Assembly (NCBI GenBank): GCA_009746045.1
Contig: RPFO01000104.1
Location: 1,957,948 to 2,021,947, forward strand
Length of the DNA stretch: 64,000 bases
From: Mesostigma viride
Lineage: Eukaryota > Streptophyta > Mesostigmatophyceae > Mesostigmatales > Mesostigmataceae
Direction of reading: 5' to 3'
Below are positions 2,262-64,000 of the stretch, one piece after another (positions within the stretch are counted from its first letter, which is position 1; each line of letters starts with the position of its first letter). The translations under genes and the position numbers were made by a program. The notes under the pieces are model-generated. The model searched no databases. It was given only the letters and a program-made list of their open reading frames with translations, and was not told where the DNA came from.

Positions 2262-5200
2262 CTAGTACATGTCGGCCGCGATAAGCACGACCAACGCAGT
2301 CCAACCGGTGAATGGATGTGATCCCTTCCCCTCGGCGCGTGTCTTGTCACCATACTGCTCCCACAAATAATGGGTCCTTGCGTAGCACTCCTGCGGCGTG
2401 CAGGGGGTAGAGCGAGAAAAACGAGAGAGGAATCAAATAAGTTAGATGAGCTAGAAAACCCTTCCATGTGCACATGGTACCGGTTAGGGCGAGCAACTCA
2501 AACACTTTGACAACAAGGACTCAGCAAGTTTGAAAAGATTTTTCGAGAGCAAGCATGCGCAGAGGGCACAGCCCGGTGTCCTTCAATGCAAGCCCGGTTT
2601 TGCAGTTGGTGTGCAAGTCGTGCATTGTAGGTGCATCTACTATATCTACTATATCTACTATATCTACTATATCTACTATATCTACTATATCTACTATATC
2701 TACTATATCTACTATATCTACTATATCTACTATATCTACAATATCTCGATCGACAAGTGCAAGGTGAGGAACAAACCGTGCGTGGAAACCCGCCCACTCG
2801 CGCTGCTGTGCCTGCTTGCTGCTGACGGCATCATCAATGCACCTACTTCCGAGAAAACACCACAGCATGGAACAAGTAGTACTACGTATCAAGGAAGACA
2901 AGTTGCCACCAAGCCCCTTGCATGTACCAGTTCGCGGGCTCGCACCAACACATGAGACAACTGGAAATACAATACTACTACTTTATACTGTCTCTTCTTG
3001 CTTTCTGTAGTGTATTTACTACTAGTACAATCATACCATGTTGATAACCAATAGTGTCACTAGTACAATTATATCATTTTGATAACCTCTAGTGTCACTA
3101 GTACAATTATACCATGTTGATAACCTCTAGTGTCACTAGTACAATCATACCGTGTTGATAACCTCTAGTGTCACTAGTACAGTTATACCATGTTGATAAC
3201 CTCTCGTGTCACTAGTACAATTATACCATGTTGATAACCTCTAGTGTCACTAGTACAATTATACCATGTTGATAACCTCTATTGTCACTAGTACAATTAT
3301 ACCATGTTGATAACCTCTAGTGTCACTAGCACAATTATACCATTTTGATAACCTCTATTGTCACTAGTACAATTATACCATTTTGATAACCTCTAGTGTC
3401 ACTAAAAAAGTATTGCCATCCAGCGCCACTGCACTGGTGTGCTCCGGGGCACGTAGCAAGTACACAGCCGATAGCTGCTCATGTAACTCATACCTAAATA
3501 ATACTGCCGCCGCACCCGTATGTTTCCAGGGACGGGGTGCCAGGCAACAGTCACGCTCACGACAAATTGACAGGCAATACGCCAGGTAGGCGTTGCCAAG
3601 CTCAAATACGATAAAACAAGGGCCACCCAACGCCGCCCCACCTGGATGTTCCCTAGTACAGCTTGACGTAGACTAGCATACAGCTCCCCTGCACGCGCCG
3701 CATGAGGACCCGCCACCTGGCGGTAGTGGTGCAGCGCCCCTAGCGCCAGGTAGTTGAGGTTGATCCAGACCGGCCCGCGCCAGTAGGGCGGGTCGTGCTC
3801 CGTGTTGCGCGCCATGTAGAGGCTGCTGTTGAGGGAGAGCGAGCGTAGGCCTGCGTCACGGCTCCACAGCTGGCGCTCGTCACCCAGCAGGTCGAGCACC
3901 TGGGCACGTTGGCATGGGTACCAGCCGTGATTGGCATTGTTTCTTAAGTTTGTGTTAGTGGGTCATGCATTAGTGTTAATAAGTCATAGCGAGGTTTTGT
4001 CACGCAGAGGGTCAAGCACTTGAGCAGGTTCGGGCGTACAGCAGTAAAACACATCACGGTCCATCAAGCGAGTGGCCGCTCATTCCCCGAAAGGGTAAAC
4101 ACCTGGGCACGGTTGCGACTTCTCGTTCACTTCAACTTCGGTCAGCAACGATATGAGAAGTAAAGCAGAGCTAAAGATAGTATGATAAGTAACTATAAGA
4201 AGTAACAGAGTGGTATGCTTGGTAAACTTGCATCGATGAGAAGGGCAATGGATGCTGTCAAGATCCTGGCACGGAGGGATACCAGGGACCGTTGCATTCG
4301 GGAGGACTGGGCACCCACGTAGTGGGCAACATGGGTGATGTACAGCAGCATACCCATGGCGATACTAAAATACTACAATACTATAATACTACTAATATCA
4401 AACTACTATTAGTAGTCTATTATTAGCAGTAGTAAATAATTATTACAACAAGCAGCAGCGTGCATCCACCTGCACCGCCCCGAATCCCCACTACAGGCGA
4501 AACAGACTAATAGGGGAGATCAACTAGAATGCAGTCTCACCCTGCACCTCCCTGAATCCCTACTACAGACTAGAGAACAGGCTGAACGGACTAGTGCAGG
4601 TGGCTGCTCTCGACACTACTGATAACTGCTGCTTGCTGGCTGCTCTCGACACAATAACGGAGAATCCACCGGCACGAATCCGTTCAGTCTGTAGTAGGGA
4701 TTCAGGGAGGTGCAGGGTGAGGCTACATTCTCCCCCGCTCCCAAAAAGCAGGCAACAATATGCAGTGGGCACCCACCTGGCCCAGCGGGGCTGACTGCGG
4801 GTCGAGTAGCTTCATGAGCAGCGGGAAGAGGGTCACGTAGCCCACGTGGGGCACGTGCCGCATCTTGGGCCGCCCCGTGACCTCCCGCACCACCGACGTG
4901 CGCGGCGGCTGGCCCTCGCGTTCGGGCGGCAGCATCTTGCGCCGCAGAGCCACCTGTTCCCGCAAAAACAATGGACAACGAAAACAATGGACAACAGTAG
5001 GATGCAAGGATAGCAATACCAACATCCCCTTAATCTCAAGTGGTCAGCCACCTGTTCGCATCACAGGTCAAGGATGAAAATGCACACATTACGCACATCC
5101 TGTTGTAAAGTGGTCAGCCACCTGTTTGAGGCACAAGTCCAGGATAGCGATAAACTTATCCATATACAAGTACGAACCAATGGTAATAATCTACCCAAAT

Positions 5201-8200
5201 TGCAAGGAGAATGAATAGAGACGGCTGGCAAAAGAAAGGCGGAACCCCGAATACATGCATGGTCAGAACTCAGAAGAGCGTGGTCATAACAGCGGCAAAT
5301 TATGCCTAACTTGCTTACAGTCCCCAGAGGCTCACACAAAAAGATTGGTTGAGTATGCCCAATTTCAACTAGGCCCCACCACCAGAAACAAAAACTCCAC
5401 CCACCACACGTAATGGCACGCATGCACATCGTAATATAATAAAGCACACATGGCCATATTGGGAACCGAAACAAATTGAAAGCAGATGAATTCTACGTAT
5501 CTGGCAATCCCCCCCCCCGCCCCCCCGCCGCCAATAACCCTACCCCTTGGTGTGGTGACGATATACATATACAGAAGCACTAGGTTTCACCTCCCAGGTA
5601 TTCCTCCATACTGTAGTATTCATCTAGCAGCGGACCCCCCCCCCCTCTCATGACCATCCACCCTCTTGGCGTGCTTGCCCAAGTCAAAGAAACCCGCTCG
5701 TGATCAAATTCTTCCTCCTTGGAGGCCCATCGCTACCACCCCACCCCAACCCACCCGCTCGGTGTGGTTCCCAAAATCGAAGAAGCCGCCCCGCTTTGCG
5801 TCAAAATGGACCGCCTCCAGCGCCCGGTTGTCGGCCAGGTGGGCGGCGTCGGCCTCGTACGCCGCCAGCTGGCGCGACGGCGCCCCAACAAGGCGGCCAA
5901 TCGCGGCCATGCAGCGGGAGGCCAGGGCCATCCAGCACCACAGGTCCACGTGCAGCTCTTGGGGTGAGGGGTGTGACGCGCGCGGATAGTCATCCAGGCC
6001 TGGTGATGGGTTGGGGAGTGGGGGGTGGGTGGGTGGGGGGAGGGGCGAGAGGAAGACGACCTGTGAGGTGTCAGATGATTTCATGGTAGATAGGAGAGTG
6101 GGTAGATAGTTAAGCAGGGTAGATAGTTAAGCGGAGGGCACTAGTATCAACACTGACCATCAACATTGGTATTAAGACGGCCTAACCGTGTGCTAGTGCG
6201 ACTGCAGAGCGTTTTGTGATCAACCAACGCTGACCATCACCGTTGGTATTAACACAGGGGGGACGCTCCAGTAGTTGTCAACCCTTTCATGCGGCTCCTG
6301 CTTGCAAGCGCCAGGTCCCCCTTGGCACGCCTAAATGGGGGATATCTCCATCTTCCTTCCTTCCTTCCTTCCTTCCTTCCTTCCTTCCTTCCTTCCTTCC
6401 TTCCTTCCTTCCTTCCTTCCTTCCTTCCTTCCTTCCTTCCTTCCTTCCTTCCTTCCTTCCTTCCTTCCTTCCTTCCTTCCTTCCTTCCTTCCTTCCTTCC
6501 TTCCTTCCTTCCTTCCTTCCTTCCTTCCTTCCTTCCTTGCTCTGCCTGTCTTGCATGGACACCCACCTCTGCCGTATTGCCCTCTCTGCAACGTCATCAC
6601 GGTGACGAATGCCCGTGCTCTCTGGCTGAATGGCAAGAATATAAGAATCAGGAAAAACCAACAAATGCAGATACTATAAATGCCGCCCCCCAACAGCCAA
6701 CCTGATGGAACTGGTCAACACGGAGCCTGCCTGACATGGAAGGTCCGAACACAGCCTACCTGAGGTGAGTGTCTTTGCGTTAAGCTCGCGCCCGTCCCCT
6801 GAACTGGGATCCCTCCCCCGCCACATGAACCCCCGAGGATCGGCCCCCCTCTGCGTGGTGTTAAACCAGCGGTACCACACCTCCAGCCGGGGAAACGCTG
6901 CGCGCAGAAACTCCAAGTCTTTATCCACGTCGCCGCCGGCACCCAGCCTCTCTACCGCCACATCGGCTGGGGCGTCGCCATTGCCATCGACCGCATTCTT
7001 CTGGGTGGCCTGCCCATCCTCCTTGTCGCTGCTGGCCTTGTTGCTACGGGATGACGTCGCGCGCTCCGCTGACATCACGCGCTCCGCCATGGCCATCAGT
7101 GGCAGGAAGAGCGTCGGCGGGTTTGCGTGGCCAGAACTCTGCACGACAAACTCGGCAGGGACTTTGCGCGCCGCCTCGGCGCCCAGGATCTGAGGAGGGC
7201 CGTGGGAATAAAGATTTGGGAGAAGGATACAGGCTCATTAATCAAAGCAATAAACAATCAAAATACGTGCACTGGAAGGGTGGGGTGCAAAGCCCAGCCA
7301 GCACTACGAACAAACCCAAGTACCGTCGATAATAAAAGTGTTAAGGTGAGGGTCCTATGCCAGACCCCCCAAAACCATAATATGGAATAACAGGCAAAGC
7401 TGGCCTTGGGGCACCCAAACTATGATTTTGCCATGTAAATGGGATGTGTGGGGGTCCATCCCACCTACTGATGGGGGGTATATACCCCTTTTAGTGACCG
7501 GTATTACGCAAAAACGGACAAAAGACGCTACTCTAGGGGCATATCCCCTAGGACAATGGGGGCACAATTACTCATGTTTCAATATATTCCCATATTAAAT
7601 CGTATATGGTGAGGTTGCCTACCTATTTGGAGCCCCGGAATGATGAGTATTATTGAAGTTATTAATTTTCCCCTAAAAACCGTACTTTTTAAGGCTGAAA
7701 AAATAAATCAAATCAAAAACACATATTTAGAGCCTGGGGAGATATACACAAATACTACACATATCGACAATTAATGCCACAAAATCTGAGCTCATTCTGA
7801 GTACAAACGTAGAAGTTATAGCGTTTGGCAGTTTGCCACCTGTGCAGACGCTAAGGAAGGCAATAGTGAGTATTAAGGCACACTAACACTTCCTATGCCA
7901 TCCAAAAGGCTCCTGACCATACCCAATTTGACCGCAATGTACAAGGAGGTGGCTGGGCACATCATGTGCCCTTGCCTTACCTCGACACGGGCAACCTGTT
8001 GCGTGTGTGCACAACAATGAGGCAGGTAGCTCTACATGCCTAGCCAACACTTCTTATGCATATTCCAGGTTTATGGTGTGGGCATCATCCCAAAACCAAG
8101 CTGTCCGAATTCAAACACACCCTGGAAAGCCATATCCACTAATTGCCCAACCAAGGGTAACAACAGACAGTCGACAGAGAAAGCATAAGTATCATACATG

Positions 8201-11200
8201 CTGCTTGCCAAGGCTTCTTACCATGGTTACCTTGCCTTGCTAGCATATGAATTAGGGCTCTCCCATTTTAGTGGGAGAAAGGCAAACAAGACGACGATAA
8301 CCCCTACCTACATGCAGTTCCACCCATGCAGTATGCCCCTCAGAACAACCACTGCCACCTTTCTTTCCAGCGCAATTGTTTGCCAAGAAACAACCTCAAG
8401 CTTGTGAGCCTCTAACCACAATGAAGCCGCTGCTAAGAAAGGCTGCGTCAATATTCACACAAAACTGAGTGCTGTTAGCAATCTCCTTCCAAGAAAGCAC
8501 TCAGCAAATCCCTGACAACTTGACGGCATGCCACGGCTCACGCTTTGACACGTCCCAGCCATGCAACGTACATACAAAACACTAAAAGGTGCCAGAAATC
8601 TGGCGATGCGCAGCACGGAATGGCATTCTACCTGGCCCTAACTGCACGGAAAGAAGCCGAAAACTTGCGTTGATAACCCATAAAGGAAGCGAAGCATCCA
8701 TAGGGTGACGCTGAGCACACGATCGTACCATTACCGGCGTTGTCCTTCGCCCAGCGGCGCAGGAAAGAACAACCTTCCATGGAATAATATAAGACGCGCA
8801 TCCCGCGAGCCTGGAGAATGTCTTACCGATCATGAAGGAAATCTTGCCGAAACCCAGCAATTTTTTTAAAGCTTTACCCATAACAATTTAAACGCATCCT
8901 TGACGCTAGGTAAAGCCCATAAAACCTGACAATCACCGCCGCCTGCGTGCATTCTAATTTATTCCTCTCGACGAAAACATCAGATTGGACCCCCGTGGCG
9001 ATGGTCATCAATAAAATCATCGACACTGCAAAAAACGCGAACTCCGCTAAGAAGGAATATCATAAACTTGTCGTCTGTAAGATTAGCACAGTTTCTCTGC
9101 ATTCCGCGAGCTATCTTTTTCTACTCTGCCTGAAAGCACGTCGCCATGGCCAGCTCCGGTAGGGGTGCGCGCACCGTGCACCACTTTTTCACGGTACGGA
9201 CGGGTACCGCGAATTTTTTCGGCGCCAAAAAATTCGCGCTGGGACCGTCACCTTAATATTAACATTATTATAATAATCATATTCTACAGTTCAATGGGAA
9301 GACGGGAATACGCCCAGGCTTCTCTCAGTACCAGGGGGGCAGGCCACAGGTGAAGATGCCGGAAAACATATACACGGGGCCTGCGCTGGTTATCTCATCG
9401 ACATAGGGTGGCGCCGAAGCATGGAAGTCCACAAGAGGCCAACAGCAGGCATTACCCAGTCAAGATATGTGGGGGGCGCTAAAGTCGCACATGCTGGGTT
9501 TTGGGAACTGCACAATGACACACATAAGTAAGTAAGTACTTGCGTGTCATGCGCATCCGCATGCCACGGAGACCAATGCTAATCTCATTAGAAAAATAAT
9601 TACGTAAAAGTTAAACAAACAGAAAAATATTGTCTGCACCATGCCCCACCATATAGTAATGGCTGTGTATGACACACATTGACACATACAGCGGACTACT
9701 ATCCAGCAAAATTGCACTGCGATTGGCGATTGGGCGGCTGCAGCGTCAACTAACTACATCTGGGACGGCAGAATCACAACCGCACCTGCCCGCGCGTTAT
9801 CCGCCGCCCACGTAAAGAAAGGCTCCGTATGAACAGCCCACACAAAGAAAAGCCCTTGAAATTCATTGTTTCCAAGTCGCTACGGCAGTCTAATGGTGAG
9901 GAGCGCACCTGCTCGCGCGGGATCCAGCCGTTCACGTTCATCAGGTCCAGCCAGTGCGCCAGCACATCGCGGCGCAGCGCCGGATCCCAGCGACCGACCA
10001 GCAGCTGGTGGAAGCCCTCGTCCCACAAAAAGCCGCGGGGGAAGAAGGAGCGGCTGGGGGTGGCCGTGAAGAGGGGCGCGGGCCAGTAGTGAAGGATGGG
10101 GGCCTGGGGGAACGGGGGGGGGGGGGGAGATGGGGTGTGGCAGGTAGCAATGATGATGTGGCAGTGCAGTAATTGAAAACAAAAAACAAAAAAATAGAAT
10201 TGATAATAGTGATGTGTGGCAGTAAAAAAATGGTGTGTCGCAATGTATATTGGTGTGGCAGGTAGCAGGAGTGGTGGGCGGTCCGGTAGCAAGACGGTGG
10301 ATCGTGAGTGATGCAGACAACGACAAATTTTACGCGGGTTTTGAAACGATGATGTGGCGCGGGGAGGAGACGACACTGGTGGGTGGGGGGGAGGTTAGAA
10401 CGTGCCGACGAATGCCAACAGATACCGACAAATGCCGGCAAGGGAAACCAATGCCATGCCCTGTGTCCTTGCACCTGCGCACTCATTCGTTCGTCCACGC
10501 ACGCACGCACGCACGCACGCACACAGCAGGCGGGAAAGCATCAAATCTGCCAAGAATGTGCAGACGCCAGCATTGTGAACCCACAACGTGAAAATGCCCC
10601 CTACGAACCGTAGAACCCCCCCAAACTACCGCCAGCATTATCAACTTCACCGAGAGGCAACACTAACTACTAAACCCATAAGCAGGACAAGGGTTATATA
10701 TTGGTATATGGAGCATCCTGCATCCAGCACTGTAGTTAGATATGTCGTCATATAGTACCGTACCATATTTAGATATATAGTAGTAAAGATATATAGAACC
10801 TTATTCAGATAGGGACCCAAGCAGCTTACCTGCTGCCCCGCGGGCACCCCCTCAGTATCCCTCACGAGGGACGACCCGTAGAAATAGCCCATGCCGCCCA
10901 GCAAATTGCTCAGCGCGCCGCGCAGCATCCCCCCCGCACTGCTGACGCCCGCGACTGCCCCTCCCCCCTCCCCCACAGGGAACGTGGCGTCAAACCGCGC
11001 ATCAAACGCCGCCTCGCGCGCCTCAAACAAGGCACCCAGGCCAGCACCCGACAGCTCCAATGGCACGGGGGGCACTGGCACCTGTGAATCGTGAAGCTTG
11101 GGGGTGTCTGGGTGGCCAGCCCCAGCCCTCTTTTGTCCGCCCTCATCACCCGCGTTCGAATCCGGTGCATTGATGACGACTCTATCATCGACGCCTGACT

Positions 11201-13544: not shown

Positions 13545-15152
13545 GTGCTAGCTGCCATGTCAGTCATGGACAGTGCAAGCCGTCGCGCGCTTCTAATCGT
13601 GCTTACGCTGCTATGCCTGCAGATATTGAGCTCAATATGCAAGGGCCGCTTCGGCTTAACACTGGGTCCGCAGAAGGCTGCATCGCTTCCAAGGTTCCGG
13701 GGGGGGCCTCTCAAGCTTGAACCGGTTTCCCCTGGTAGGAAATTAACGGCCCCTTCTCACGCTGCCCTGGCCGGGTCGCAATTTTTTATCATTAGTCAAG
13801 CTGACCGCTATATTCGCGTGGTGGAAACAGGGCCACAAGTCCAAGCTTGCAACGTCTCGCGCTCGTACTTCCTAGGCTCTGTGGAAGGGGTCGGCTGCGA
13901 CGGAGTGCCCCTCTTTACAGCATTATCGGTTAACTGCGTAGAACGGGGTAGGTACGAGACAACCCTTCCAAGCCGTTGTGGTACCTACAACGTCACAATA
14001 AAGTTGGCTTTAAGAAATGTGCGTTTGGACCTTGCAAACTATTTCGAGGTGGCACAGGCACAGTGGTCGACGTTAGTACGGCTGCCAGTTGTTTGGACAA
14101 AGTCTGGCATTTCTGTGCCAGAAGCTTCGATACAAAACGCCACGGAGCCTGAAGCAGCCAATGGCACGGCTGGCATTTGGTACAAGCCCAAGGAGGTTCG
14201 AAATCAATGGTGTTTGAACTGCCAGACTGCAGAGTTAGATGGCATGGGTGACTACCAATACATTCCCAGTCCAAGCAATGAGAGATTGCCCAGCCGTATC
14301 GGTACTCCTACTGCGGTCAGAACCGCATCCATCTCAAAGAATGTTTCTATCTCCAAACATTATCGCTCCCCGCAAGCCATTCAGTCCTGCATCGCAGAGA
14401 AAGGCATCCAGAGGATCGCGTTTGTGGGTGGGTCCACCCAACGCTTCCGGATGTATTGGTGGTGGTGGCTGCTGGACACCAGCGTCGACATTACCCAGTT
14501 TGGCTGGACGCACAACGACACGCATGTGCGGGCGGCCAATGTGTCCATCAGCTGGTTCTTCGACCCCTTGGGCCTGCGCTTGATGAGATACCTGCTATCC
14601 ACGACAGGGATGCCATGCACCACAAAGGGATGCGACTCGGACGCGATCTACGATGGTATAAAACCAATTGAAGGCCGCGAAAAAGCTGGAGCAGCAAGGT
14701 TGCCCATGGACTTGGATGGGTTTGATGTCATCGTCATCGGTTATGGACTCTGGCTGAGCACCGTGACACCGGCCACATTGGCAGGTCATGACGCCAGGAT
14801 GGCCGAACTTGCAAGACAGTTGAAACTGTTCAAGAGCATGCACCCCCACTCCCATGAGTTTATCTGGGTGGACGCTTTTTCGGAAGTGCCCGACCATGCG
14901 GCAGGAACTCAAATCTACCAGGATCCCGTACTCCTGGGCATGCTTCGGGACGTTGCGCATCGCCACCTGGCGGGGGCGCCTACAAGCATCGTGGACGCAT
15001 ACGCCATCTCCTTGGGCCGAGAGATGAGTTCGCCAGACAAGAGGCATTACGGGGAGTGGAAACACCAGGAAAACCAAGCTAGGTACTTGTCTTACGTCGG
15101 CTCGGTCGAACGGGAGACAACGGAGCGAATCGTGAAGCACATCTGTGCATGA
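13545..15152 (+). CDS. NXPE/PC-esterase-like SGNH-fold type II membrane protein
   Basis: This is a single-exon gene for about 535 residues. Residues 14-31 form a hydrophobic signal anchor, so the protein is probably a type II Golgi or ER protein. The N-terminal part has Cys-rich and N-glycosylation sequons and a CGTYNVTIKL stretch like the region before the catalytic domain in NXPE proteins. The SGNH-type signatures are AFVGGSTQRF (Ser297, replacing the usual GDS with GGS), DVIVIGYGLWLS, and a C-terminal SSPDKRHYG with Asp498 and His501 placed like the DxxH catalytic pair. This family includes plant TBL O-acetyltransferases and animal NXPE and CASD1. The exact substrate is unknown; acyl transfer to a glycan is an inference. 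Met6 is an alternative start. It is the only complete gene in the window without introns. Confidence 0.75.
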   Translation: MLAAMSVMDSASRRALLIVLTLLCLQILSSICKGRFGLTLGPQKAASLPRFRGGPLKLEPVSPGRKLTAPSHAALAGSQFFIISQADRYIRVVETGPQVQACNVSRSYFLGSVEGVGCDGVPLFTALSVNCVERGRYETTLPSRCGTYNVTIKLALRNVRLDLANYFEVAQAQWSTLVRLPVVWTKSGISVPEASIQNATEPEAANGTAGIWYKPKEVRNQWCLNCQTAELDGMGDYQYIPSPSNERLPSRIGTPTAVRTASISKNVSISKHYRSPQAIQSCIAEKGIQRIAFVGGSTQRFRMYWWWWLLDTSVDITQFGWTHNDTHVRAANVSISWFFDPLGLRLMRYLLSTTGMPCTTKGCDSDAIYDGIKPIEGREKAGAARLPMDLDGFDVIVIGYGLWLSTVTPATLAGHDARMAELARQLKLFKSMHPHSHEFIWVDAFSEVPDHAAGTQIYQDPVLLGMLRDVAHRHLAGAPTSIVDAYAISLGREMSSPDKRHYGEWKHQENQARYLSYVGSVERETTERIVKHICA

Positions 15153-15766
15153 CAAATGATCGATTCGTGAAATGCCTGTACATCATCCTAGCTATATGTA
15201 GCGACATGCGCATGCAGCGCCCACGACAGGATCGCAAGTAATTAGCTAGAGCAGCCAGATTTGCCTCTGATCATAACGTGGCTGGCTCAGCGTAGTCTCT
15301 TAGCTGTAGCTGGTAATTTAGATTGGAATGGACCTGATGGCATTAGATCAGCCATAATTAATTAGTTAAACACGCTCTTGTTGGGGAGTAACGGAGTATA
15401 AACCCTATGTAATGGATGGATATGGATGGACAAACAATTCTAGATACCGGCAGGCTACCGGGTCTATTCTACCTATCTAATGCCTAAACTAACAAACCAA
15501 TGGACATGCCACGTAGCAGGTAGTGCCATTCAAGCTCTAGCGGTCACGCCGGGCGTTCTTCGATCGGTCTTCCCATGACGGGTTCATCGCGCCTCTTCCC
15601 TAAGTTGGGGCGGGATCGTTATCCTCTATACCTGCTGGGCCCAAGTAAGTAAAAGCTAGTACCAGCTGGGCCCAGATGGCCTTGTCATTAGTGCATCTTG
15701 TTCCAAATCAAGAAGAGGCCGGAGCCGGCCCGCCCTCATGTCCTGTTCTAGAGCTCTGCACCTTAT
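15153..15766. other. 3' flank of the esterase gene, nothing recognised
   Basis: Non-coding sequence. A TGTAA word, the common chlorophyte polyadenylation signal, occurs at about 15409, but use of it is not shown. Confidence 0.35.
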
Positions 15767-16770: not shown

Positions 16771-16789
16771 CATGGGGGCCATCGCCATC

Positions 16790-17440: not shown

Positions 17441-17589
17441 ATGCAGCGCATGTGCGCCCATACTGATGGCCATGGATGATGCATTAATTAAGAATTTAGC
17501 CGCGCCCTGCCTATAATGGGACCCCCATGGATGATGTATTGGCATGTGTGCCGGTTATGATGTACCGGCCACACTCCAGCTGATGCCTA

Positions 17590-18570
17590 GCTTTATCTAG
17601 TTATGCTGTGCCCATGCAGAAAATTCTGTGCCCCAAGGACATTCCTAAGAAGGTAGGCAAGCATGTCATGACCTACCCACAGCAGTTGATGGCTGACCAG
17701 TGGTCCCAGCGCAGTTTGAACATCACATTCACTCCGGCTCTCTCTTGCTTGGACTGCTATGCAGGACAAGAAGAGGTGGAAGACCATTGCCCAGGCTCAT
17801 ACGCCCGCCCCTGTGGGCAAGCCCCCTCCCCCCAAGCGGAAGGGGCGCTTTGCTGAGTAGAATAGGTAGGGTTTTCTCGGTTATATTAGCTTAGAGTTAG
17901 ATTAGTTCGGTTTCGCGGCTTTGTCCCCCCTCCATCCATCCACGGGAATATGTGCTACATGATCTCCCAATTACGGAGTCATGTTATAATTTAATGCAGA
18001 GAGCTGCTCTCTGCTGAGATGCCACTCTCTAGCTCTTGTATAGATATGATGATCTTCCCCCCCATGCATGACAGGCTCGCCCTTAAAGCTGGGCATAGCT
18101 TGATAGATCATGGGGATGCAGGTGCCCTGGTGCACCCCGAGCAAGTGTCGTCAATTTACATAGATTCCCACCCTTGCAGGAAGTAGCTTAGAATGTGTAT
18201 TAATAAAAGTCATGTGCCCCTTCTCTGGGATATGTGCTACATATACTCCCAACGGAGTTAATTAATTAATCAATTAAATAATCAAATTAAATAATTAATT
18301 AATTATTTAATCGATGGATGATGCATTAAGAATTTAGAGCCCTGCCTATATACAGAGAGTCACTCTCTGATGAGAAACCATGCCCTAGCCTTTGTATATA
18401 TCCATGATGATCTTCCACCCCATATGACGAGGGGGCCTTTAATCGGGCTCTGATAGATCGTGGTGGTGCAGGTGCCCTAGCTTGCTGCACCTAGAGCAAG
18501 TGTCGTTTACATCCCCACGGTCCTCGCAGGAAGTACATAGCCCAGAGTGTACGTATTAAAAGCCATATTG
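17590..18570 (+). mobile_element. LINE family B: ORF2 C-terminus plus two 3' UTR copies
   Basis: 17764-17867 encodes an ORF2 tail of the type MQDKKRWKTIAQAHTPAP followed by GKPPPPKRKG and a stop. Close relatives are at 21538-21648 (+) and 20516-20640 (-). It is followed by a 3' UTR with the end phrase GGGATATGTGCTACAT then CTCCCAACGGAGT and an AT-rich tail. A second 3' UTR copy starts near 18330 and is interrupted at about 18570. Confidence 0.65.
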
Positions 18571-20394: not shown

Positions 20395-20690
20395 CTCGTT
20401 GGGAGATCATGTAGCACATATTCCTTCCTTGATGCATGGGAGGTGGAAAGGAGAGAGCAGCGTAATCTAACTATCCTAACGCTAATCTACCTAGTCTAGA
20501 AAAATCCTAACTGCCCTACTCATCAAAACGCCTCCTCCTCTTGGGGGGAGGGGGCTTGCATGCCCACAGGGTCGGGCGTGTGAGCCTTGACAATCTTCTG
20601 CCACCGCGTCTTGTTTTGGATGGCAGTCCAAAGAAGGGATATGTGCTACATATACTCCCAACGGAGTTATGTTCGGGGGCGTGGACCCGT
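20395..20690 (-). mobile_element. LINE family B 3' end, minus orientation
   Basis: Read on the minus strand it gives an ORF2 tail like that at 21538-21648 (words KTRWQKIVKAHTPDP and a PPPPK-type stretch), then a 3' UTR ending GGAATATGTGCTACATGATC. It abuts a plus-oriented LINE-B end (GATATGTGCTACATATACTC) at about 20638. Confidence 0.65.
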
Positions 20691-22805: not shown

Positions 22806-25800
22806 CTATGTGGTAGTTGGCGCGACGGTGGCAATGCCTGCTTGCACCTCGTCCTCGGCCAGACACCTGGCAATTGTCTCGACCGTGCACAAGCGGATGG
22901 CCTTGAACGCGTCCAGCACCCGCAAGAGCGTGTGCTCAAAATCATTGGAGTGGTCTTGGAACGGCGCCGCACGGTCAAAGTAGTGATAGCGGATGTTGAC
23001 CTGGCGTGCACGATCCATGCCAACGATGCAGGCAGGGGATGCAAGGCGGTTCGAGGGGCGCAAGGGGTGCACAAAGCTTATTGGCGAAACAAATACACAG
23101 CAAGGTGTGAGAAGCAACAAGTACCAATTGCACGACAGCGGATTGTTGAACCGAGATAAGTAAAGGAAATTACGATTCCAGACGCAAAACCAGGCTATGA
23201 GAGGCTCTTGTTTATTGTTCATGGACTAGTGGAGTAATGCACAGCTTGCGAATAGGGCCTTCAAGTTAAGATGCCAGATGTGCTGAGCCCTCCGACCCCT
23301 ATATATGTCTGTTATACTTGTCGGCATGATCTCTGACGAGATGCCCGATGTGCTGGGCCCTGCTAACCCCCTCACTCCCCACCCTGCCCCCCTCGTGGGA
23401 CTAAAAGAAGAAGTCGGGACTCATATCTTGCAGCCTAGCCCCTAACTTCCCACCTTTGTGCTGGGCGAGTCGACACTGTAGACATCCAAACACCAAGTCG
23501 TTGTTAACCATGTTCAACAATCCCTGGCATTACTTTTGTGCTGGGTGAGTTGAACCTGTAGACGTCCAACGAGTACACCATGAACAGTCCTACTGACATC
23601 CAGTCTTGACAAAGTGCTTGGTGCTTGGTTCCGGTACCTTTGTGCTGGGCGAGTCGAACCCGTAGACGTCCACCCTCTGGCACATCTGCAGCAGGAACGC
23701 GATGCCGACAAACCCGGTGGGCGCGCTTTGCACGCCTTCCCACGTGATGTCATAGCCCTCGAGTCGCTTCATGACCGTCTTGTACAGCGTGATGGAGGGG
23801 ATTAGGAACTCAGGCGCCAGCAAGTAGATCGTCTCGTCGGGGTACCTGGGGGGGGGGGGGAGGGGGGCGCAAGGTGGACGGGAAGACAATGGCAGAAAAG
23901 TATTTTACTGCATGTTGTCTTGTCTTCAAAATCTCGCAGTCACATCGGAGAAGTGAACCCAATCCCCCCAGAAAGCGTTGAGAGAAAGATAAGGCAAGGA
24001 AGATGTGGCAAGGGGGAGGGGGGGAGGGAGGAGACGCGAGAGAGCCGGGGCGACAAGGGGCATGAAAGACAAGGCACAGGGGGGGGGGGGGGGGGGGCAA
24101 TGGGCAGGCAGAGGGGGGGAGAGGGGGATGGGCAGGCGGGCGGGGGGGGGGCGAATCCAAACACAGGGCAAGAGACAAAAAAGATCCAGGCAATAAAGAG
24201 TGGGAAACCAGCCCCTGTTCAGGTGAGTGTTTTTATCACTCACCTGGTTTTTAAGTGGTGTTCACCACCTGACAGGGGTAAAGAGAGTGGCAACCTTCAA
24301 GTAACACGAGGGTGACTTTTCCTCCTTTATTTCATAGCGAACATAAATGGAGGGGGCTGGATAAACGAACGTGAGTGTGCGAGTCCCCGGCATGATGCCA
24401 TATTTGTGGCAGCTCTTTGCGTTAACCCTCAAACTGGCCTATGGGCTCGTTAGCACCCAGGCGCACTCAGCGTGGTGGCTTCATAGGCCTTTCACCGAAA
24501 CAGGCCCCTGCGCCACATTCACAGAATGATTGCCATCGTAACACTACTCGAAATCGCCCAATAACCAACTCCTCTCCCTCTCTCTACAGCTCACCTCTGT
24601 ATAACTGCACCCCATACCAGTTTCCCACTAGTCCCTACTAACGCGGATCCTCCTCCTTGGCCTCGCATTGTCGTAATAACACCAACCCATACCTCTTCTG
24701 AAGCATGCCGCAGTAGCGGTAGCTTTCTTCACGCTACGGCTGAATGAAGTATCACATGAATGAATGGCCACATCAGCGATACCAGAACCAGCCCCTTTCA
24801 TCCGTTCCCAAGACGTTTTCCTGCCGCCCATACCTCTTCCGGACCATCCCGTAGTAGTGGTAGCTCTCCGCACGCCACAGCAGCAATATGTTCCGGTGGT
24901 GGCCGGCGCCCTTTTTCCGATGCCCGCCCCCCCCGGGGGGCTCGTCCTCGACGATACCGTTGTGGCTCTCCAGCAGCGCGTCGCCCCACTTGCGATTGAG
25001 CAGGCGGAAGGTCGTCTTGGAGCCCACGTGCTGCTCGAATCCCTTGGTTACTCTGGTGGTGATGATGGCAGCGGTAGGGGGAGGAGAGGGGGGCAAGGAG
25101 GTTTGGGGGGGAGGATGGAATTGAGGGATGCCGAGAGGCAGGGACGAGAGGCTGGGGGGAAAGATTCTGGACTTCCCAGGGGAACCCGCTCGCGGCCAAG
25201 GAGGTCAGATGCTGGATGGCACAGACCTAGTCGGGTTGGGGCAGACAACATGGGACCGATAACAATGGGCCGGCATGGTGATTGGGCCTGGTAATTGTCC
25301 ATGGTAACTATACCTGGTAATTACACCTGGTAATTGGACCTGGTAGTTGGACCTGGTAATTGGACCTGGTAATTTGACCTGGTAAGCAGACCTAGGGGCG
25401 GACATGTCATCCGCAGGGGGAGGGTTCTATGTGGGGGAGGGTGGGGGCGTGCTAGGCTGCCCCGTGGGGGCGTGCAAGGTACGACAGGCTGTGTGGGTGG
25501 CAGGCCGAGATGGGAGTTCCAAAATCCTAAGTGTGCCTTGTGTGTGTATGAAGTGAGACAACTATTCCTGGACGCATGGCGATCCAACTATAGTGTAGTG
25601 TGTTTGTATGTGTGCGTATGCGTGCGTGTGTGTATGTGTGCGTGTGTGTATGCGTGCGTGTGTGTATGTGTGCGTGTGTGTATGCGTGGGTGGGTGTATG
25701 CGTGCGTGTGGTGGGTGGTTAGTGGTAAGCATTCAGCTGTGTACCACAACTGCCTTGGAGGCAGAGGCATTGCATTGGCTGGGTGGGTTTTGGACATTGA

Positions 25801-40400: not shown

Positions 40401-41380
40401 GACACCGACCTGCCCGAGGTGTTGGACTATGTCAAGCTCAAGGCGGAGGTGTCCACGATGGAGAAGAAGGACATGGACTGGACGCGCAAGGTAGGCTGTA
40501 TGGAGGCTATATACAGCTAGTTTACTAGGTGTTTTGTTTTGTCGTAGAGGAAGGACATGGACTGGACGTGCAAGGTGGGCCACTGCTAGGCTGCTTTTGT
40601 TAGGCCAGTTGGTCAGTTACCTAGTTGTGCTTTGATTGAAGAAGGACATGGACTGGACTCGCAAGGTGGGGTAATGTTAGGCTGGATACTTGTAGTTGTC
40701 TTGCTGATGGTTGTGTGATAGAAGGACTGGACGCGCAAAATTGCTGTTGTTAGGCTAGTGGGTGTACTAGATGATTGCTGTAGGCGTGAGCATGGACGCA
40801 CTGTAGTGGTGGGCCGGTTAGAGTACTTGGTATTTGCTTGAGTAACTTGCCTTATGATGGAATACGGACAGGGGCTGGACTGGATGCGCATAGTGGACTG
40901 GTTGTAAGCTAGTGAGGGGGTTGTTTGCCACTTGATTCTGTGGGCAGGTCTTGTTAAAGTAGGTCCTACGTTCATCTTGCGTGGTACCTCTCACGTGGCG
41001 CATCTATCTCATTCCCCAGGCAGAATGCAATGTCCATTGGACTACTACTCATACAATGTCCTCCCTTCCACAAATGCTTCCCCACTATTCTTGCCTTCAC
41101 CATACCTGGCTCGCTTAATAATATTCACAAAGAAGTTGTCTCTCTTAATAATACTTCCACCGCATCGCCTCCACCAAAATGCATTGACTACACCAGGGCT
41201 GAATGCAAGATTTGCTGTATGCATGCCATGCCCCTCCCTTTTACGTTTCGTATCGCCACCATGCAATTTGCATCCGTCACCAATATAATTGACCGCCTCC
41301 ACCAGGTCGAGATTTCGGAAATGGAGATCAAGCGAACCCAGCGGCAAGTGCGCACGATGCAGAGAACGATGGGCAAATAG
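34479..41380 (+). CDS. CFAP263: Cilia/flagella-associated coiled-coil protein CCDC113 (CFAP263/FAP263)
   Basis: Seven exons with matching phases give about 364 residues, close to the usual CCDC113 length: 34479-34634, 35761-36110, 36916-36994, 37559-37726, 38687-38818, 40356-40490 and 41306-41380. The N-terminus is acidic and ends in EIQLFETFLQ. A Lys-rich linker follows, then an almost continuous coiled coil. Signature phrases of the DUF4201 domain are LRLKNATLKTQISKMEQQL, GEVLHVVDFDQLKIENQQYL, NNELLRLKLTTGKT, DLPEVLDYVKLKAEV and the final VEISEMEIKRTQRQV. CCDC113 works with CCDC96 (CFAP184) on axonemal doublet microtubules near the base of radial spoke 3 and the nexin-dynein regulatory complex. 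CCDC96 shares the domain but has a much longer acidic N-terminus, so CCDC113 fits better. Its presence implies a motile cilium at some life stage. Confidence 0.88.
35455..35750 (+). repeat. Degenerate ~25-bp repeat (TACGCATCACTCAACGCCCCA)
   Basis: About ten diverged copies of ACGCATCxCTCAACGCCC in CCDC113 intron 1, ending at the acceptor of exon 2. They keep a frame open across the acceptor, which makes the exon look longer than it is. Confidence 0.7.
36484..36620 (+). repeat. 34-bp tandem repeat in CCDC113 intron 2
   Basis: Four copies of TGAGAGGTATTCTGGACAAG followed by GGAACTGAATAAAC, the last ones diverged. Confidence 0.85.
36995..37240 (+). repeat. 48-bp tandem repeat starting at the exon 3 donor
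   Basis: Five copies of a 48-bp unit beginning GAGTAAACAATTACACACAA. The first copy begins inside the splice donor itself (CAG/GTGAGTAAACA). Later copies have TATGAGTAAACA, so the donor-like word is repeated every 48 bp. Confidence 0.9.
37370..37455 (+). repeat. (CT)n microsatellite before CCDC113 exon 4
   Basis: About 40 CT units, followed by C-rich sequence up to the exon acceptor at 37558. Together they form a pyrimidine tract of nearly 190 nt. Confidence 0.97.
38975..39950 (+). repeat. ~1-kb array of the 10-bp unit CCCCTCTTCT in CCDC113 intron 5
   Basis: About 97 units of CCCCTCTTCT with rare one-base changes and 1- to 2-base deletions. One strand is all pyrimidine for almost 1 kb. Open frames of 402 (+) and 465 (-) codons cross it only because the unit lacks stop codons. 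Confidence 0.99.
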
Positions 41381-42020: not shown

Positions 42021-42191
42021 TATTATTGAGACAGCTATATATTCGATGCTAGCTGGATGCATGCAAGGCGGTCCAACGTATACATCGTGTGAGGACTAGA
42101 GTACCTGATTTTGATTTCAACGTACGTAGTAGTCTCTCTTAGTTCTTGGCGGATCGATATATATTAATAATATATAATTACTTACAGCAGA

Positions 42192-43740
42192 GTGAAATCA
42201 CTCAAACCAAAGCAAACGCCCAGCTATAGATCGATACCTCACCTCAGCGAGACTCAGCACGGCTTCCGTTCAGGTCGCAACACAGTACAGGCGCTCTTCG
42301 CTACTCGCAGACTGGTGGAGGAACTGCAACGCCTTCAGCCTGGTGAGTCCCCTTTGCACCTTGTGCTGGTGGACTTCATCAAAGCCTTCGATTCGGTTTT
42401 CTGGCCTGCGCTTTGGGACATCCTCGAGTTGTTCCGGATCCCCCGCCCCTTGATTGCTGTCATCCGCAACCTGTATGAAGGGTCCACCACTTCGGTGCGC
42501 ACTTCTTACGGGACCACGCCCCCATGCCCTTTACAGAAGGGTGTGTGGCAGGGCTGCGTGCTGTCGCCCTACCTGTTCATTATTGTTGTCGAATACGTAA
42601 TGATTCAGGCGCGCAAGCGATTTGCCCGCATCGTGGGCAGGGAACCAGGAGTGCAGGTTGCTAACAAATTCTGGCATGGCGGTGCGGACACGGAGATTCG
42701 GCTAGCAGACATCATTTACGCAGACGACACCACCCTCTTCGAGGACACTGAGCACGTGCACACATGGCTTGACTGCCTGGCTCTCGAGGCCCGTGCAGTG
42801 GGGCTTGAGGTCAGCAAGAAGACAGAGGCCCTGGCGGTTGGGCTCACCAACCCAGCGCCGCCCCTCTATCTCCTAGACGGCTCTCGAGTCCTGTATCGGG
42901 ACCGCGTTAAGCTGCTGGGCAGCCTGCTCCCTAGCTGCGAGGTTGATGTGGACCACCGCATCTCCCTCGCCTGGCACGCTTTACGCCAGTACCGGGCCCT
43001 GTGGCGCAAGCCCCTGGGCAAGATCGAGAAACAGGACCTGTTCAAGGTCCTCGTCCTTCCTGTTCTCACGTATGGCGCCGAGACGTGGACCCTCACCGCC
43101 GACCTGGCCCGCAAGCTGGACGGCGCGGTCACCAGCATGCTGCGTTCCATTTTCAGAGTAGGATACGCTGCTCATGTCCGCAATGAGGACCTGTACCAGG
43201 GCATGCCCTATATCACCAGCACAATTAAGCAACGCCGCCTGCAGCTAGTAGGGCACCTAGCTCGCACCAACCAGGTAGACACCTCACGTGGCCCCCCCGC
43301 AGGACTGCGACCAGCCCAGCCTGGCCGGCACCTCCTGACGTGGGCTGGGCCCAGTGATGTTAGACGCCGCAAGGCCCGCACCTTCAAGGAACAGCTAGTA
43401 GAGGACATGGGGGGCCTAGGCCTCTCCGTGATTTGGAAGAAGATGATGGACAAGGCCAAGTGGGCCCAGGTCATAGAGGAGAACGAGCCCCCCCCAGTGG
43501 GGAAGCGCCCGCGTGTGCAATCCCGCGGGAGGCACGCTAGATAGCTCCCCCTAGGGCAGCGTGCGGCTGCCCAGATAGATGTTGTAGTTAGAATGTTGTT
43601 AGATAGATGTAGTATGTAGCCAATGTAGATAGATTAGACCGGTAGGAATGTGTGCACCCATCCATCCATCCATCGGGGTTAATGCTCCGTGACTCCCCAA
43701 CGGGAGCACGAGTCTAATTAATTAATTAATTAATAGATCG
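42192..43740 (+). mobile_element. 5'-truncated LINE with long reverse-transcriptase ORF2 fragment
   Basis: The open frame 42192-43544 (about 450 codons, no ATG at its edge) encodes the RT palm and C-terminal part of a non-LTR retrotransposon. Visible RT motifs are QHGFRSGRNT, LVLVDFIKAFDSVFW (motif A), KGVWQGCVLSPYLF (motif B) and ADIIYADDTTL (motif C with YADD), followed by the VKLLGSLLPS and TYGAETW segments. The endonuclease domain and first RT motifs are missing. The stop is followed by a short 3' UTR with the hairpin at 43684-43707 and a (TTAA)n tail at about 43716-43735. The intact frame suggests a fairly recent insertion. Confidence 0.9.
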
Positions 43741-43750
43741 ATATATATAC

Positions 43751-49650: not shown

Positions 49651-49659
49651 GAGACGCGC

Positions 49660-58596: not shown

Positions 58597-58822
58597 ATAA
58601 TGGCCGAGTGTACAGTCGCATCTTGGATAGTCCGGACTGATGACGCGGAGCTGCTGATCTGCGACTCCAGATCCTGGGCGAGTGAGTCGCGCCACTTGCC
58701 TTCGCAGGCGAAGTATCTGCGTAGAAAAATATGACCTCCTCGGGTACTCCGTGGCATATATGCCAGTTAATTTGGTGCATGTTGCACGCATTTGTTTACT
58801 TGCTTACTTATCAAGGAGACAA
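58597..58822. repeat. Dispersed repeat, copy 2 (partner at 917-1110)
   Basis: Matches 917-1110 and continues into CTTACTTATCAAGGAGACAA, which is the end word of the GTCTCCTTGATAT family. That suggests the repeat terminates there. Confidence 0.7.
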
Positions 58823-58978
58823 CTTATGCATCTAAGATTTTGTTTTTGTTTATCGTAAGCTATAAACAAAGATTAATTCCAAATTGAACCGGTTTGTAAG
58901 GCCTTTCGCGCTGTCATGCATGCTTGAGCCAATTTGCCCCTGATAAAGTTTTCTCGATCATGTACCACGAGGGCATAC

Positions 58979-59018
58979 ATCAAGGAGACAACCACGTACA
59001 TACATGGTCTCCTTGATA
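58979..59018. repeat. Inverted pair of GTCTCCTTGAT ends
   Basis: ATCAAGGAGAC and GTCTCCTTGAT are separated by about 18 nt, the same arrangement as at 1207-1242. Confidence 0.6.
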
Positions 59019-61125: not shown

Positions 61126-64000
61126 ATGGACGCCCATGATTCCGCCGATATTTTTCTCAGCGTGGAAGCATTTCTGGAGAGCTGCCAAACCTCCGCAAGT
61201 CAGGCTTATGCGAATTTTAAGGCTATCCTGGCCCGCTTAGACGATCCATCTCTTCGCGTGCAGGCGCGTCGCTTCTTGGCCAAGATCGAGGACGCGCTTA
61301 GCGCACCTGCCGCTGGTGTCGATGATCCGCTCTCCTATTACCACTGCAAGTTTGTCGATCTGCCATTGTCCGGCGGGGTCGACTTTGGGGCTCTGGGCGA
61401 GTATGTCGCGGGGACGGCGGGACCGGGTCGAGGCGGGGAGACGCCGGTGCTTTCGACTCCTCGCGAGCCGACTACGCGCCAGCTGCGGTCCGTCGACGCG
61501 GACGACGAATCCTCCGAGTGGTCGGGCCGGCTCCAGAGCGTGAAAATGCTGGTCCTGCCTTCCATCTTTGTCCCTGAGAACTGGTCATTTACTTTCTACG
61601 AAGGCCTCAGGAGGGCCCCTGCGGCTTACTTTGCAGGGAGGGAGGTGATCGAGCTGGGCACGGGAAATGGGTGGATCAGCATCGCCGTGGCCATGGAGGC
61701 CTGCCCCCGCAAGGTAGATGCAGAACCAAGTATTGACGAGGAGTTGGAAGCCACGCAGCTTGCCTTTTGATGCTACGAAGTGCGCCTCAACTGATTTGGC
61801 CTCAACCGTGCACAATTGTTTTTCTATAATATTATGGGAGGATCCAAAAGCCTGCTGTTTAGGTTACCGCAACATGGCATGGTTGCGCATTAGTTCCCTA
61901 AGTTACCTAGTTTTGGCCCTTGATTTGGAAAGAATAAGTTTGGTCGGCCTATATGAGTTTCGTTGTGTAGCAACAGTGTTGATATTCCAAACAGCTTGCT
62001 TCCTTCTTCGCCCCCCTGCCCCCCCCGACCCCCTTCCCTCCCGGGGGGCATGCCCGCTCAAGCAGTAACATAGCAGTTAGCCATCTGTTGTCCCTCCCCT
62101 GCCTCCCCACCCTGCACCCACCCACCCACCCACCCACCCACCCACCCGCCCGCCCGCCCGCCCGCCCGCCCGCCCGCCCGCCCGCCCGCCCGCCCGCCCG
62201 CCCGCCCGCCCGCCCGCCCGCCGCCCGCCCGCCCGCCCGCCCGCCCGCCCGCCCGCCCGCCCGCCCGCCGCCCGCCCGCCCGCCCGCCCGCCCACCCACC
62301 CACCCACCCACCCACCCTGCGCAGATCATCGGCCCCAAATTTAACCCGCACTCCAAAGCACCAGCTGGCTGTCACAAAGTGTTCAACCCCCCTAGATATG
62401 GCCCTCTTCGTCCCCCCCCCCCCCTCCCCTTCCTCCCACTCCGATCATCAGGCTACGCGTCAGCCCACACTTCGTACTGTAGCAAGCAGCAGAGCTGTAA
62501 CTCATTATACCGTATATTCTATATTCAACATTAGGCCTCTCTTCGCCCCCCCACCCACCCCCACCCACCCCTGTTCCCCCCGCGAAGATCATCGGCCTCG
62601 ACATCAACCCGCGTGCGGTCGTCTGCGCGCGCATCAACCTCTACCTCAACGCGCTGAGGCGCGACGGATACCCCCTGCCGGGTCCCTGGAGCAAGTGGGG
62701 GGGGGCACCCACGCCGGCGTCCGGGGGTTCCTCCCCAGAGTACACAAGTAGCGGCGGCACGGGGCAAGAATGTGCTCCCCTTGACCTGGCCGCGGCTCAC
62801 AGCGGGGGGGCGCTGGGTGGGGCGGGGGCAGTGGCAGCCGCCCCCCCATCGTCTGGCATGTCGCCGCCGTCGGCCCCCCATATTGCGGCTGCCAGTGCGC
62901 CGGTCATGACGGCGTCACTGCTGGACATTGTGGAGTTCCATGAGTCGGACCTGCTCGGGTGGTGCATGGCACGGGGGACGCCAGCGGATACTATCATCGG
63001 GTGCATCCCGCAGGTAATAATGACAGTCTTCTATTGTTAGCATTTATTATTAGCGTTTTACTTCATTGTTAGCGTTTCGTGTGTGACAAGCTGGATAGTG
63101 GTGGCCGACACCAACATCAGGTGCTTGCTTACGTTGCTCGTTGTGTATCCGGGGCGGTGAATCCTGTACCTCCACCTGCCAGTTGCTCAACCCGGACCCG
63201 GACGCTTTGTTGATATCTGTGTTTGGGAATCGTCGTGTTGAGCCCATCCCTGTGGCAGGTGCTGAACCCCGACCCGGACGCCGTGCGCAAGATCATCTCG
63301 GAGAACCAGAGCGAGGACTTTTTGTATGACCTCAGCAACTACTGCAGCCAACAGGTATGACCTCAGCAACTACTGCAGCCAACAGGTATGACCTCAGCAA
63401 CTACTGCAGCCAACAGGTATGACCTCAGCAACTACTGCAGCCAACAGGTATGACCTCAGCAACTACTGCAGCCAACAGGTATGACCTCAGCAACTACTGC
63501 GGCCAGCAGGTATGCCATCAGCGGGTACTGCTGCGAGCAGGTATGACATCAGCGGGTACTGCTGCGAGCAGGTATGACATCAGTGGGTACTGCTGCGAGC
63601 AGGTATGACATCAGCGGGTACTGCTGCGAGCAGGTAGGGCCACTGACCATGTCCATGTCGCAGCAGCCAGCTGACTAGTAGTTGTCGCATAGGGGCATCC
63701 ATTAACTGTTGCAACTTGAATATTATAACAAATACAATGAGACAACCATCCTATAGTAGTATAAGCATAACACAGATGGTGGCTACCCTAGTGGCTTCTA
63801 TGTGGCTACATGTGCCAGCGCTAGACTAAGTCAACAGTGCAATCCTAACACAGATAGCGGGTGCCCTAGTGACTACTATTCGGCTACATTTGCCAGGGCT
63901 AGACTAAGTCAACAGTGCAATCCTAACACAGACAGCAGGTGCCCTAGTGACTACTATTTGGCTACCTTTGCCAGGCACTCCTCGCAGGACTATATATGTC
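61126..64000 (+). CDS. MMT: Methionine S-methyltransferase (MMT), 5' part, continues past the window
   Basis: MMT converts methionine and S-adenosylmethionine to S-methylmethionine, a sulfur transport form and a precursor of DMSP in some plants. Three exons are visible: 61126-61713, 62588-63013 and 63259-63354, all phase 0. The first has VEAFLESCQTSASQAYANFK, LPSIFVPENWSFTFYEGL and SAM motif I VIELGTGNGWISIA (174-187). The second has GLDINPRAVVCARINLYLNA, a Gly/Ala/Ser-rich insertion of about 60 residues not found in plant MMT, then VEFHESDLLGW and IIGCIPQ. The third has VLNPDPDAVRKIISENQSED and LYDLSNYCSQQ. The remainder of the methyltransferase and the C-terminal aminotransferase-like domain must lie beyond 64000. 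An in-frame Met at 61042 is a less likely start. Confidence 0.92.
62111..62315 (+). repeat. (CCCA)n-(CCCG)n-(CCCA)n tract in MMT intron 1
   Basis: About 50 tetranucleotide units in a symmetric arrangement: CCCA runs flank a long CCCG run with two one-base deletions. It ends just before a pseudo-acceptor GCGCAG. Confidence 0.97.
63324..63634 (+). repeat. 31-nt exon-end cassette repeated nine times in MMT intron 3
   Basis: The last 30 nt of exon 3 (YDLSNYCSQQ) plus the donor G form a 31-nt unit. Nine further copies follow head to tail from 63355 to 63633, each ending CAG/GTATG except the final CAG/GTAGG. The first four are identical to the exon, the fifth has two changes, and the last four form a diverged subtype (ATCAGCGGGTACTGCTGCGA). 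Confidence 0.98.
63720..63985 (+). repeat. ~78-bp tandem repeat at the window end
   Basis: About three copies of a unit containing AGACTAAGTCAACAGTGCAA and then TCCTAACACAGA..GG.GCCCTAGTG, probably still within MMT intron 3. Confidence 0.8.

Follow-up and report, generated by a model that had tools for sequence, protein, structure and literature searches.

Exon-edge copies in the adjoining introns of Mesostigma viride genes as probable relics of short local duplications

The comparison of exon edges with their own introns in a 64,000-nt stretch of the Mesostigma viride genome (contig RPFO01000104.1; hereafter the window) confirmed that short segments of exon edge recur inside the adjoining intron well above chance. 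These exon-edge echoes are probably relics, evolving neutrally, of direct duplications that were short and local and straddled exon-intron junctions.

The intron set used for the analysis comprised 28 introns, and hence 56 junctions, from six genes (MOGS, EGF-GT29, CCDC113, MMT, a desaturase and a truncated haemoglobin). All 28 modelled introns are of the GT-AG type, and their length ranges from 164 to 2719 nt. Three of the spliced models agree with annotated M. viride proteins across their modelled length: the CCDC113 model, with the addition of its first exon, is identical in every letter to Mv17399, all 963 residues of the MOGS model are contained in Mv17396, and isoform RA.2 of Mv17398 contains the EGF-sialyltransferase (GT29) model in full (476 residues). 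Alignments of MOGS and CCDC113 to solved relatives also span their junctions. The truncated haemoglobin model presents a match to PF01152, the desaturase model was checked only as to its open frame, and MMT, a label taken from the sequence-only reading that preceded this work, is a putative name for a methyltransferase whose Pfam matches are to methyltransferase domains only.

Other elements were observed in the window. A single-exon open frame of 535 aa (13545-15149), previously read as an esterase, had no Pfam match at E 0.01 and no match to phage sequences in tblastn searches. An open frame at 42171-43541 encodes a LINE-like reverse transcriptase (PF00078), and its 3' end and the DNA that follows are 95-98% identical to copies elsewhere in the genome (sampled stretches L007 and L008). 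A repeat around GGGATATGTGCTACATATACTCCCAACGGAGTTA is present in several copies in the window (18227-18260, 20636-20669 and 17945-17978), and the DNA around 18227 has matches in stretches L007 and L014. A search against Rfam returned no match.

In the main test, 45 nt of exon edge (the last or the first of the exon) were aligned to the exon's own intron, leaving out the part of the intron next to the junction (10 nt at donors, 25 nt at acceptors), with a strict threshold of score >= 15 (match +1, mismatch -1). Own-intron copies at this threshold were identified at 15 of the 56 junctions (10/28 donors and 5/28 acceptors), and 19 of the 56 presented p<0.05 in both of the tests performed, against dinucleotide shuffles and against introns of other genes. 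By gene, these 19 junctions correspond to MOGS (3/12), EGF-GT29 (7/20), CCDC113 (6/12) and MMT (3/4), with none in the desaturase (0/4) or the truncated haemoglobin (0/4). Earlier runs of the same test with 21 and 25 introns had a similar outcome. The sequence-only reading had reported echoes at about fourteen junctions in the same four genes, in agreement with both counts, and its report of no obvious echo in the truncated haemoglobin and desaturase holds for the 8 junctions that make up its whole basis (0/8).

The controls set clear bounds to these matches. None reached score 15 in reverse-complemented own introns (0/56), in other introns of the same gene (0/312) or in draws of introns from foreign genes (0/11,200). 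A comparison with shuffled introns had been proposed together with the original observation, and the window genes bear it out, with 15/56 matches in the real introns against 7/11,200 in the shuffled ones. In the 21-intron set, the intron across the exon (wrong-side control) gave no match at score 15 for any of 30 edges, with 3/30 at p<=0.01 in the foreign-intron test, and windows located at least 45 nt inside the exon gave 0/136 at score 15 and 7/136 at p<=0.01. Taken together, the reverse-complement, other-intron, exon-interior and wrong-side controls indicate that the copies are local, direct and, as a rule, inclusive of the exon edge. A direction rule had also been put forward, whereby donor-side copies lie downstream of the exon and acceptor-side copies upstream. 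The wrong-side and reverse-complement results are in line with it, but the rule largely follows from geometry: the adjoining intron of a donor is downstream by definition, and the wrong-side control alone is therefore informative on direction.

In MOGS, on the minus strand, donor-edge copies that keep the GT are located in intron 2 (9781-9813; junction after 9909; 28/34 identical) and intron 4 (5658-5694; junction after 5755; 28/37 identical). Intron 5 presents two copies of the acceptor edge of the exon starting at 3899, the nearer (3999-4030; 25/32 identical) with its AG changed to AA and the farther (4077-4116; 28/40 identical) with its AG kept, and a weak donor-edge copy in intron 6 (3506-3527; junction after 3642; 18/22, score 14) falls under the strict threshold. 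The same intron 5 contains, by eye, an inverted repeat pair (4506-4716, minus), with an arm like CACCTCCCTGAATCCCTACTACAG, its reverse complement and a further copy, that is possibly a small mobile element.

The EGF-GT29 gene, also on the minus strand, carries donor-edge copies in introns 2 (32456-32499; junction after 32545; score 16, GT kept), 6 (28441-28471; junction after 28550; score 21, GT kept), 7 (27177-27200; junction after 27635; 22/24 identical) and 9 (24686-24740; junction after 24834; 44/55 identical), and two such copies in intron 10 (23531-23568, 34/38 identical, and 23452-23488, 33/37 identical; junction after 23638). The donor-edge copy in intron 4 (29879-29899; junction after 29947) is weak, with a score of 13 that becomes 16 if the query includes 40 nt of intron. 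Acceptor-edge copies are found in intron 3 for the exon starting at 30039 (30223-30240, score 16, and a second, shorter copy at 30131-30163, score 15) and in intron 5 for the exon starting at 28645, where the nearer copy (28712-28736; score 23) keeps its AG and the AG of the farther one (28808-28825; score 18) has become GG.

CCDC113 is on the plus strand. Its donors at 36110 and 40490 are each followed by four copies. Those of intron 2 (junction after 36110) lie at 36220-36246 (22/27, with the intron side similar too), 36328-36363 (30/38), 36434-36463 (27/30) and 36632-36665 (28/35, GT to GG), and those of intron 6 (junction after 40490) at 40546-40580 (32/35), 40638-40689 (44/53), 40724-40757 (27/35, GT to AT) and 40876-40911 (27/36). 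Intron 4 has three donor-edge copies for the junction after 37726 (37813-37840, 23/28; 37907-37946, 33/41, GT to CT; 38184-38217, 28/35), together with an acceptor-edge copy for the exon starting at 38687 (38549-38590, 35/42, AG kept) and a weak, far one that overlaps a donor copy (37889-37923, 26/35, score 15, AG to TG). Intron 5 has one copy of each kind: a donor-edge copy with GC at the junction (38855-38900; junction after 38818; 38/47), in which the first 25 exon bases are identical and all 7 exon mismatches fall within the other 17, and an acceptor-edge copy (40228-40255; exon start 40356; 27/28). Most of this intron is a 972-nt array (38978-39949) of about 98 copies of the 10-nt unit CTCCCCTCTT.

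The copies in MMT, again on the plus strand, are acceptor-edge copies in intron 1 for the exon starting at 62588 (62298-62349, 39/52, the intron part being a low-complexity C-rich tract, and a weak, nearer one at 62420-62466, 31/47, score 15, AG to CG) and in intron 2 for the exon starting at 63259 (63177-63205, 25/29). At donor 63354, which is a predicted exon end, a 31-nt exon-edge unit is repeated head to tail in about 10 copies (63324-63636; TRF score 402, 95% matches); the intron of this donor leaves the window, and the array counts beyond the 56 junctions.

Recurrence was assessed in 24 stretches of 10 kb from elsewhere in the genome. The first 22 of these, chosen at random, have repeats in common with the window (identity up to 100%), and were subjected to a broad test with an exon finder trained on the window, which had recovered 17 of 22 internal exons exactly among 38 predictions. 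For all usable predicted exons, copies were detected at 4/99 donors, against 2/99 on the wrong side, and at 1/113 acceptors, against 2. With exon scores of at least 30, 40 and 55, the donor counts were 4/73, 1/54 and 0/31, against 2, 1 and 1 on the wrong side, and those of acceptors 1/81, 1/62 and 1/38, against 1 in each case. As a whole, the signal in the broad test is weak or absent, and many of its exons are long open frames in which introns are not evident. Among exons of at most 330 nt with neighbours, 5/30 donors presented a copy, against 0/30 on the wrong side, although in one of the five (in stretch L005) the copy stops short of its junction; acceptors gave 0/36, against 1 on the wrong side. 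Three of the random stretches (L005, L012 and L017) are GC-rich (0.61-0.64), with many long open frames without clear introns, and are possibly inserted foreign or viral-type DNA.

Exons were also chained into three further genes with 27 introns in all, which were selected after earlier tests had shown echoes there and are hence independent of the window, but not blind. One is a UPF1-like helicase with AAA_11 and AAA_12 domains, another a P-type ATPase (PF13246) that we take to be of the P4 type, and the third is presumably a HAC-like protein, for which Pfam was not decisive. Junction-spanning copies were identified at 10/27 donors and 1/27 acceptors (5 and 0 in the exon-only test). No copy at score 15 was found in 208 comparisons of exon-interior windows with introns, and other introns gave 2/1404. 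Five of the 27 exon pairs join without an open frame, and they include three of the ten echo donors (ATPase introns 1, 6 and 7); leaving these pairs aside, the counts are 7/22 donors and 1/22 acceptors. With these caveats, the observation is replicated, and echoes recur in other genes of the genome.

The anatomy of the echoes was outlined on the 31 window copies, at 18 junctions, with a score of at least 15 and at least 12 exon bases. With a longer query (33 copies), the exon part spans 14-48 nt, with a median of 27 nt at donors and 22 nt at acceptors, slightly shorter than the 20-60 nt first described. The copies of the window lie 62-783 nt from their junction, and for the other genes the range is about 30-1080 nt. 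No trend of copy age with distance from the exon was apparent by eye among the window copies. The sequence-only reading had the copies carry their own GT or AG, which is the case for 23 of the 31 (16/20 donor and 7/11 acceptor copies), the remaining 8 having lost it. Of the copies in the other genes, 8/16 have retained the GT, with 70 mismatches in 374 exon bases. A candidate feature, the precise ending of copies at the junction, was dropped: the copy end lies no more than 7 nt from the junction in 13/21 donor copies (33-39% in simulations), but acceptors (5/12) and the other genes (3/16) do not follow.

Relative to the exon, the window copies mismatch at 0.157 (42/268), 0.133 (37/278) and 0.226 (62/274) of codon positions 1, 2 and 3, respectively, with a significant difference between position 3 and positions 1 and 2 (p 0.004). 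Given that exon positions 1 and 2 are under selection, the mismatches at these positions belong mostly to the copy, and the additional mismatch at position 3 reflects silent change in the exon; the two contributions have a similar magnitude, in keeping with a copy that drifts freely. At the 0.145 divergence of positions 1 and 2, the neutral expectation for a kept GT or AG is 0.73, against the observed 23/31. None of the copies looks like it is selected for splicing or coding; they behave as unconstrained relics. A coding-like constraint on the echoes had been considered from the every-third-base pattern of the MOGS copy at 5658-5694, and was rejected with the decay of 0.13-0.16 at positions 1 and 2 over the 31 copies.

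These data bear directly on a functional reading, in which selection maintains the echoes as repeated micro-exons or as splice sites of a decoy, alternative or recursive kind. By eye, several copies do present AG|GT and can be read in frame (e.g. 40546-40574). Recursive or decoy sites call for conserved splice dinucleotides, but their loss in 8 of 31 copies matches neutral decay, the mismatches by codon position give no sign of constraint on the copy, and three genes have annotated proteins from which the copies are absent. In these proteins (CCDC113, MOGS and isoform RA.2 of GT29), every modelled junction is spliced at the donor and acceptor next to the exon, and the decoy or recursive sites raised by the sequence-only reading find no support. 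The other annotated GT29 isoform, RA.1 (P0122; 22806-33296, minus), matches the extended GT29 model over 485 residues before it enters the last intron, reading through donor 23638 and ending inside the intron; this difference is donor read-through and not echo use. The N-terminus of RA.1 also differs from that of RA.2. A functional role for the echoes is hence highly improbable.

The explanation that we favour, a short local duplication, would start with a DNA segment of perhaps 25-60 nt straddling an exon-intron junction that was duplicated locally and in direct orientation. The protein would then be preserved only if the exon-adjacent splice site is used, so that the second copy, together with the GT or AG that it carries, would be stranded in the intron and decay neutrally. 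Purely intronic stretches duplicated by the same process would lead to general intron growth, and acceptor-side duplications would tend to be purged. The mutational event may have been replication slippage or the fill-in of staggered breaks, whether or not filler DNA was involved; tandem duplications arising from paired nicks have reportedly been studied in plants. In simulations of such a process (25-50 nt, with an insert), the intron side was similar in 22-27% of echoes and the median exon extent was 26 nt. Intron-side similarity was observed in 9/31 window copies (5/18 junctions), close to the simulation, and is commoner in the other genes (7/16 copies), suggesting that blocks of several lengths were likely duplicated. 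A short segment parted from its source by other DNA could well be the footprint of staggered-break fill-in with filler DNA, or of slippage.

Two other origins were weighed against this one. A single block of 80-140 nt, encompassing exon edge and intron, could have undergone head-to-tail duplication followed by even decay. The intron side is indeed clearly similar at CCDC113 donors 36110 and 40490, and also at three acceptor junctions, besides the other-gene copies noted above; tandem arrays are plentiful, and a very high indel rate at fixed divergence can hide the intron side (kept in 12 to 30 of 80 cases in three of eight simulated settings). Mixed-age simulations of long blocks nonetheless predict intron-side homology in 60-83% of cases (66-93% among the least diverged echoes; 65-72% in another version of the simulation), against the 9/31 copies observed, and exon extents near 50 nt, against medians of 22-27 nt. 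We consider this origin unlikely. Edge identity between intronic copies in four arrays (0.65-0.88) contrasts with a spacer identity of 0.16-0.65, as illustrated by copies 1 and 2 of donor 40490 (0.88 in the exon-like part, 0.65 in the spacer); this counts against the explanation that we favour, as exon-like parts more alike than spacers are not predicted by even decay of one duplicated block. The same contrast between edges and spacers would be accounted for by microconversion, in which short tracts copied from the constrained exon onto the intronic echo keep the copies alike and let edges outlive spacers. The patchy copy at 38855 suggests some later copying from the exon, and by eye the relation of the copies to the exon is close to a star, although they share some changes. 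For gene conversion, however, homologies of 14-48 nt are short, and with short duplications allowed the data do not require it, making microconversion quite unlikely. Of the possibilities originally raised, the lengthening of introns through local duplications that span splice sites is supported by local direct copies, their neutral decay and their recurrence.

Whether exon edges are singled out for duplication depends on the treatment of tandem arrays. With arrays masked, a second copy was found for 15/56 edges against 20/411 intron windows in the window (p 1e-6), but masking takes out most intron-only duplications. In an unmasked comparison with matched 85-nt windows, with low-complexity intron windows excluded from all counts, the window genes gave 11/28 donors, 7/28 acceptors and 44/190 intron windows, and the other genes 10/27, 1/27 and 35/158. 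In neither set alone do donors exceed intron windows (p 0.10 and 0.14), and acceptors fall below them in the other genes (p 0.03). When both sets are pooled (donors 21/55, acceptors 8/55, intron windows 79/348), donors exceed windows (p 0.018) and acceptors (p 0.009), and acceptors do not differ from windows (p 0.22). The large excess of junctions over introns, strong with arrays masked, was therefore discarded as a result, since little of it remains when windows are matched and unmasked, or when the other genes are considered. The original emphasis on exon edges is weakened accordingly: it persists for donors, at about 1.7 times the matched windows, and does not extend to acceptors, which are not duplicated more often.

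These counts are best read as local duplication that is common throughout introns and that leaves an echo when it crosses a donor, junctions of this kind tolerating it better than acceptors do. Acceptor-crossing copies are rarer, possibly because an upstream copy of the AG would tend to be used first, harming the message. The mild pooled donor enrichment and the masked excess count against plain general duplication. Donor junctions could be hot spots of a distinct short-patch copying, for instance through G-rich 5' splice-site DNA or R-loops, which we regard as unlikely. Were it true, the exon edge and its splice site would be repeatedly written into the adjoining intron, older copies might be overwritten, and edges and echoes would evolve partly in concert.

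The local duplications proposed here for M. viride have precedents. A work on intron gain by tandem duplication (PMC4974935) describes ATP2A1, a potato RdRp in which duplication across an intron-exon boundary gave rise to a new intron, and arrays of 24 bp in fission yeast. The Mesostigma echoes share with these cases the local direct duplication, which in potato crosses an intron-exon boundary, and the 31-nt MMT array is reminiscent of the 24-bp exonic units duplicated several times over in fission yeast. The cases differ in that Mesostigma introns are enlarged, with no new intron shown, and in that the copies are intronic, apparently unused, degenerate and spread over the junctions of several genes. 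Intron birth from AGGT duplications, also raised at the outset and in which both splice sites derive from one duplicated exonic AGGT segment, applies at most to the MMT donor array, which alone looks compatible with it; the window copies are 62-783 nt away from the used site, within introns that are spliced at other sites.

In Daphnia pulex, as described in PMC4202315, internal direct repeats occur in 55 of 90 new introns and 100 of 617 established ones, and are attributed to staggered double-strand break repair, with a passive growth in intron length being proposed. Internal direct repeats beyond chance are likewise found here, and in both systems some repeats are common to the terminal bases of the adjacent exon. 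Exon-shared repeats in Daphnia are 4-12 bp long, with a position at the opposite end of the new intron, whereas in Mesostigma they measure 14-48 nt and occur inside introns, often in several copies per junction; repeats as short as those of Daphnia would fall under our threshold. With regard to repeats flanking an unrelated insert, similarity on the intron side was seen in 9/31 window copies and 7/16 other-gene copies. Introner elements, as presented for Amoebophrya in PMC7789003, which also cites Micromonas, have inverted repeats, together with direct repeats of 3-5 nt. The direct repeats overlap exon-intron boundaries in both systems, but introners form families across introns and each Mesostigma repeat is private to its junction: neither a shared family (0/312 other introns of the same gene) nor an inverted copy of the exon edge (0/56 reverse-complemented own introns) was detected.

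The mean intron length of Mesostigma is given in PMC6947507 as 1141.9 bp, the second longest among the species compared, with repeats making up 30.1% of intron space; the string 'splic' is absent from that main text. Titles and opening lines of abstracts in the open-licence literature returned no description of the echo pattern in Mesostigma. The echoes are best regarded as a vivid variant of known intron-growth processes, without calling for a system of a new kind. The growth of introns usually leaves no lasting trace, and here about a third of the donors examined (21/55) keep a readable record of local duplication, potentially datable, in an early-branching streptophyte. The echoes offer a measure of the rate and type of the mutations that lengthen introns, and inform on the tolerance of donors and acceptors to duplication and on how splicing chooses between near-identical sites.
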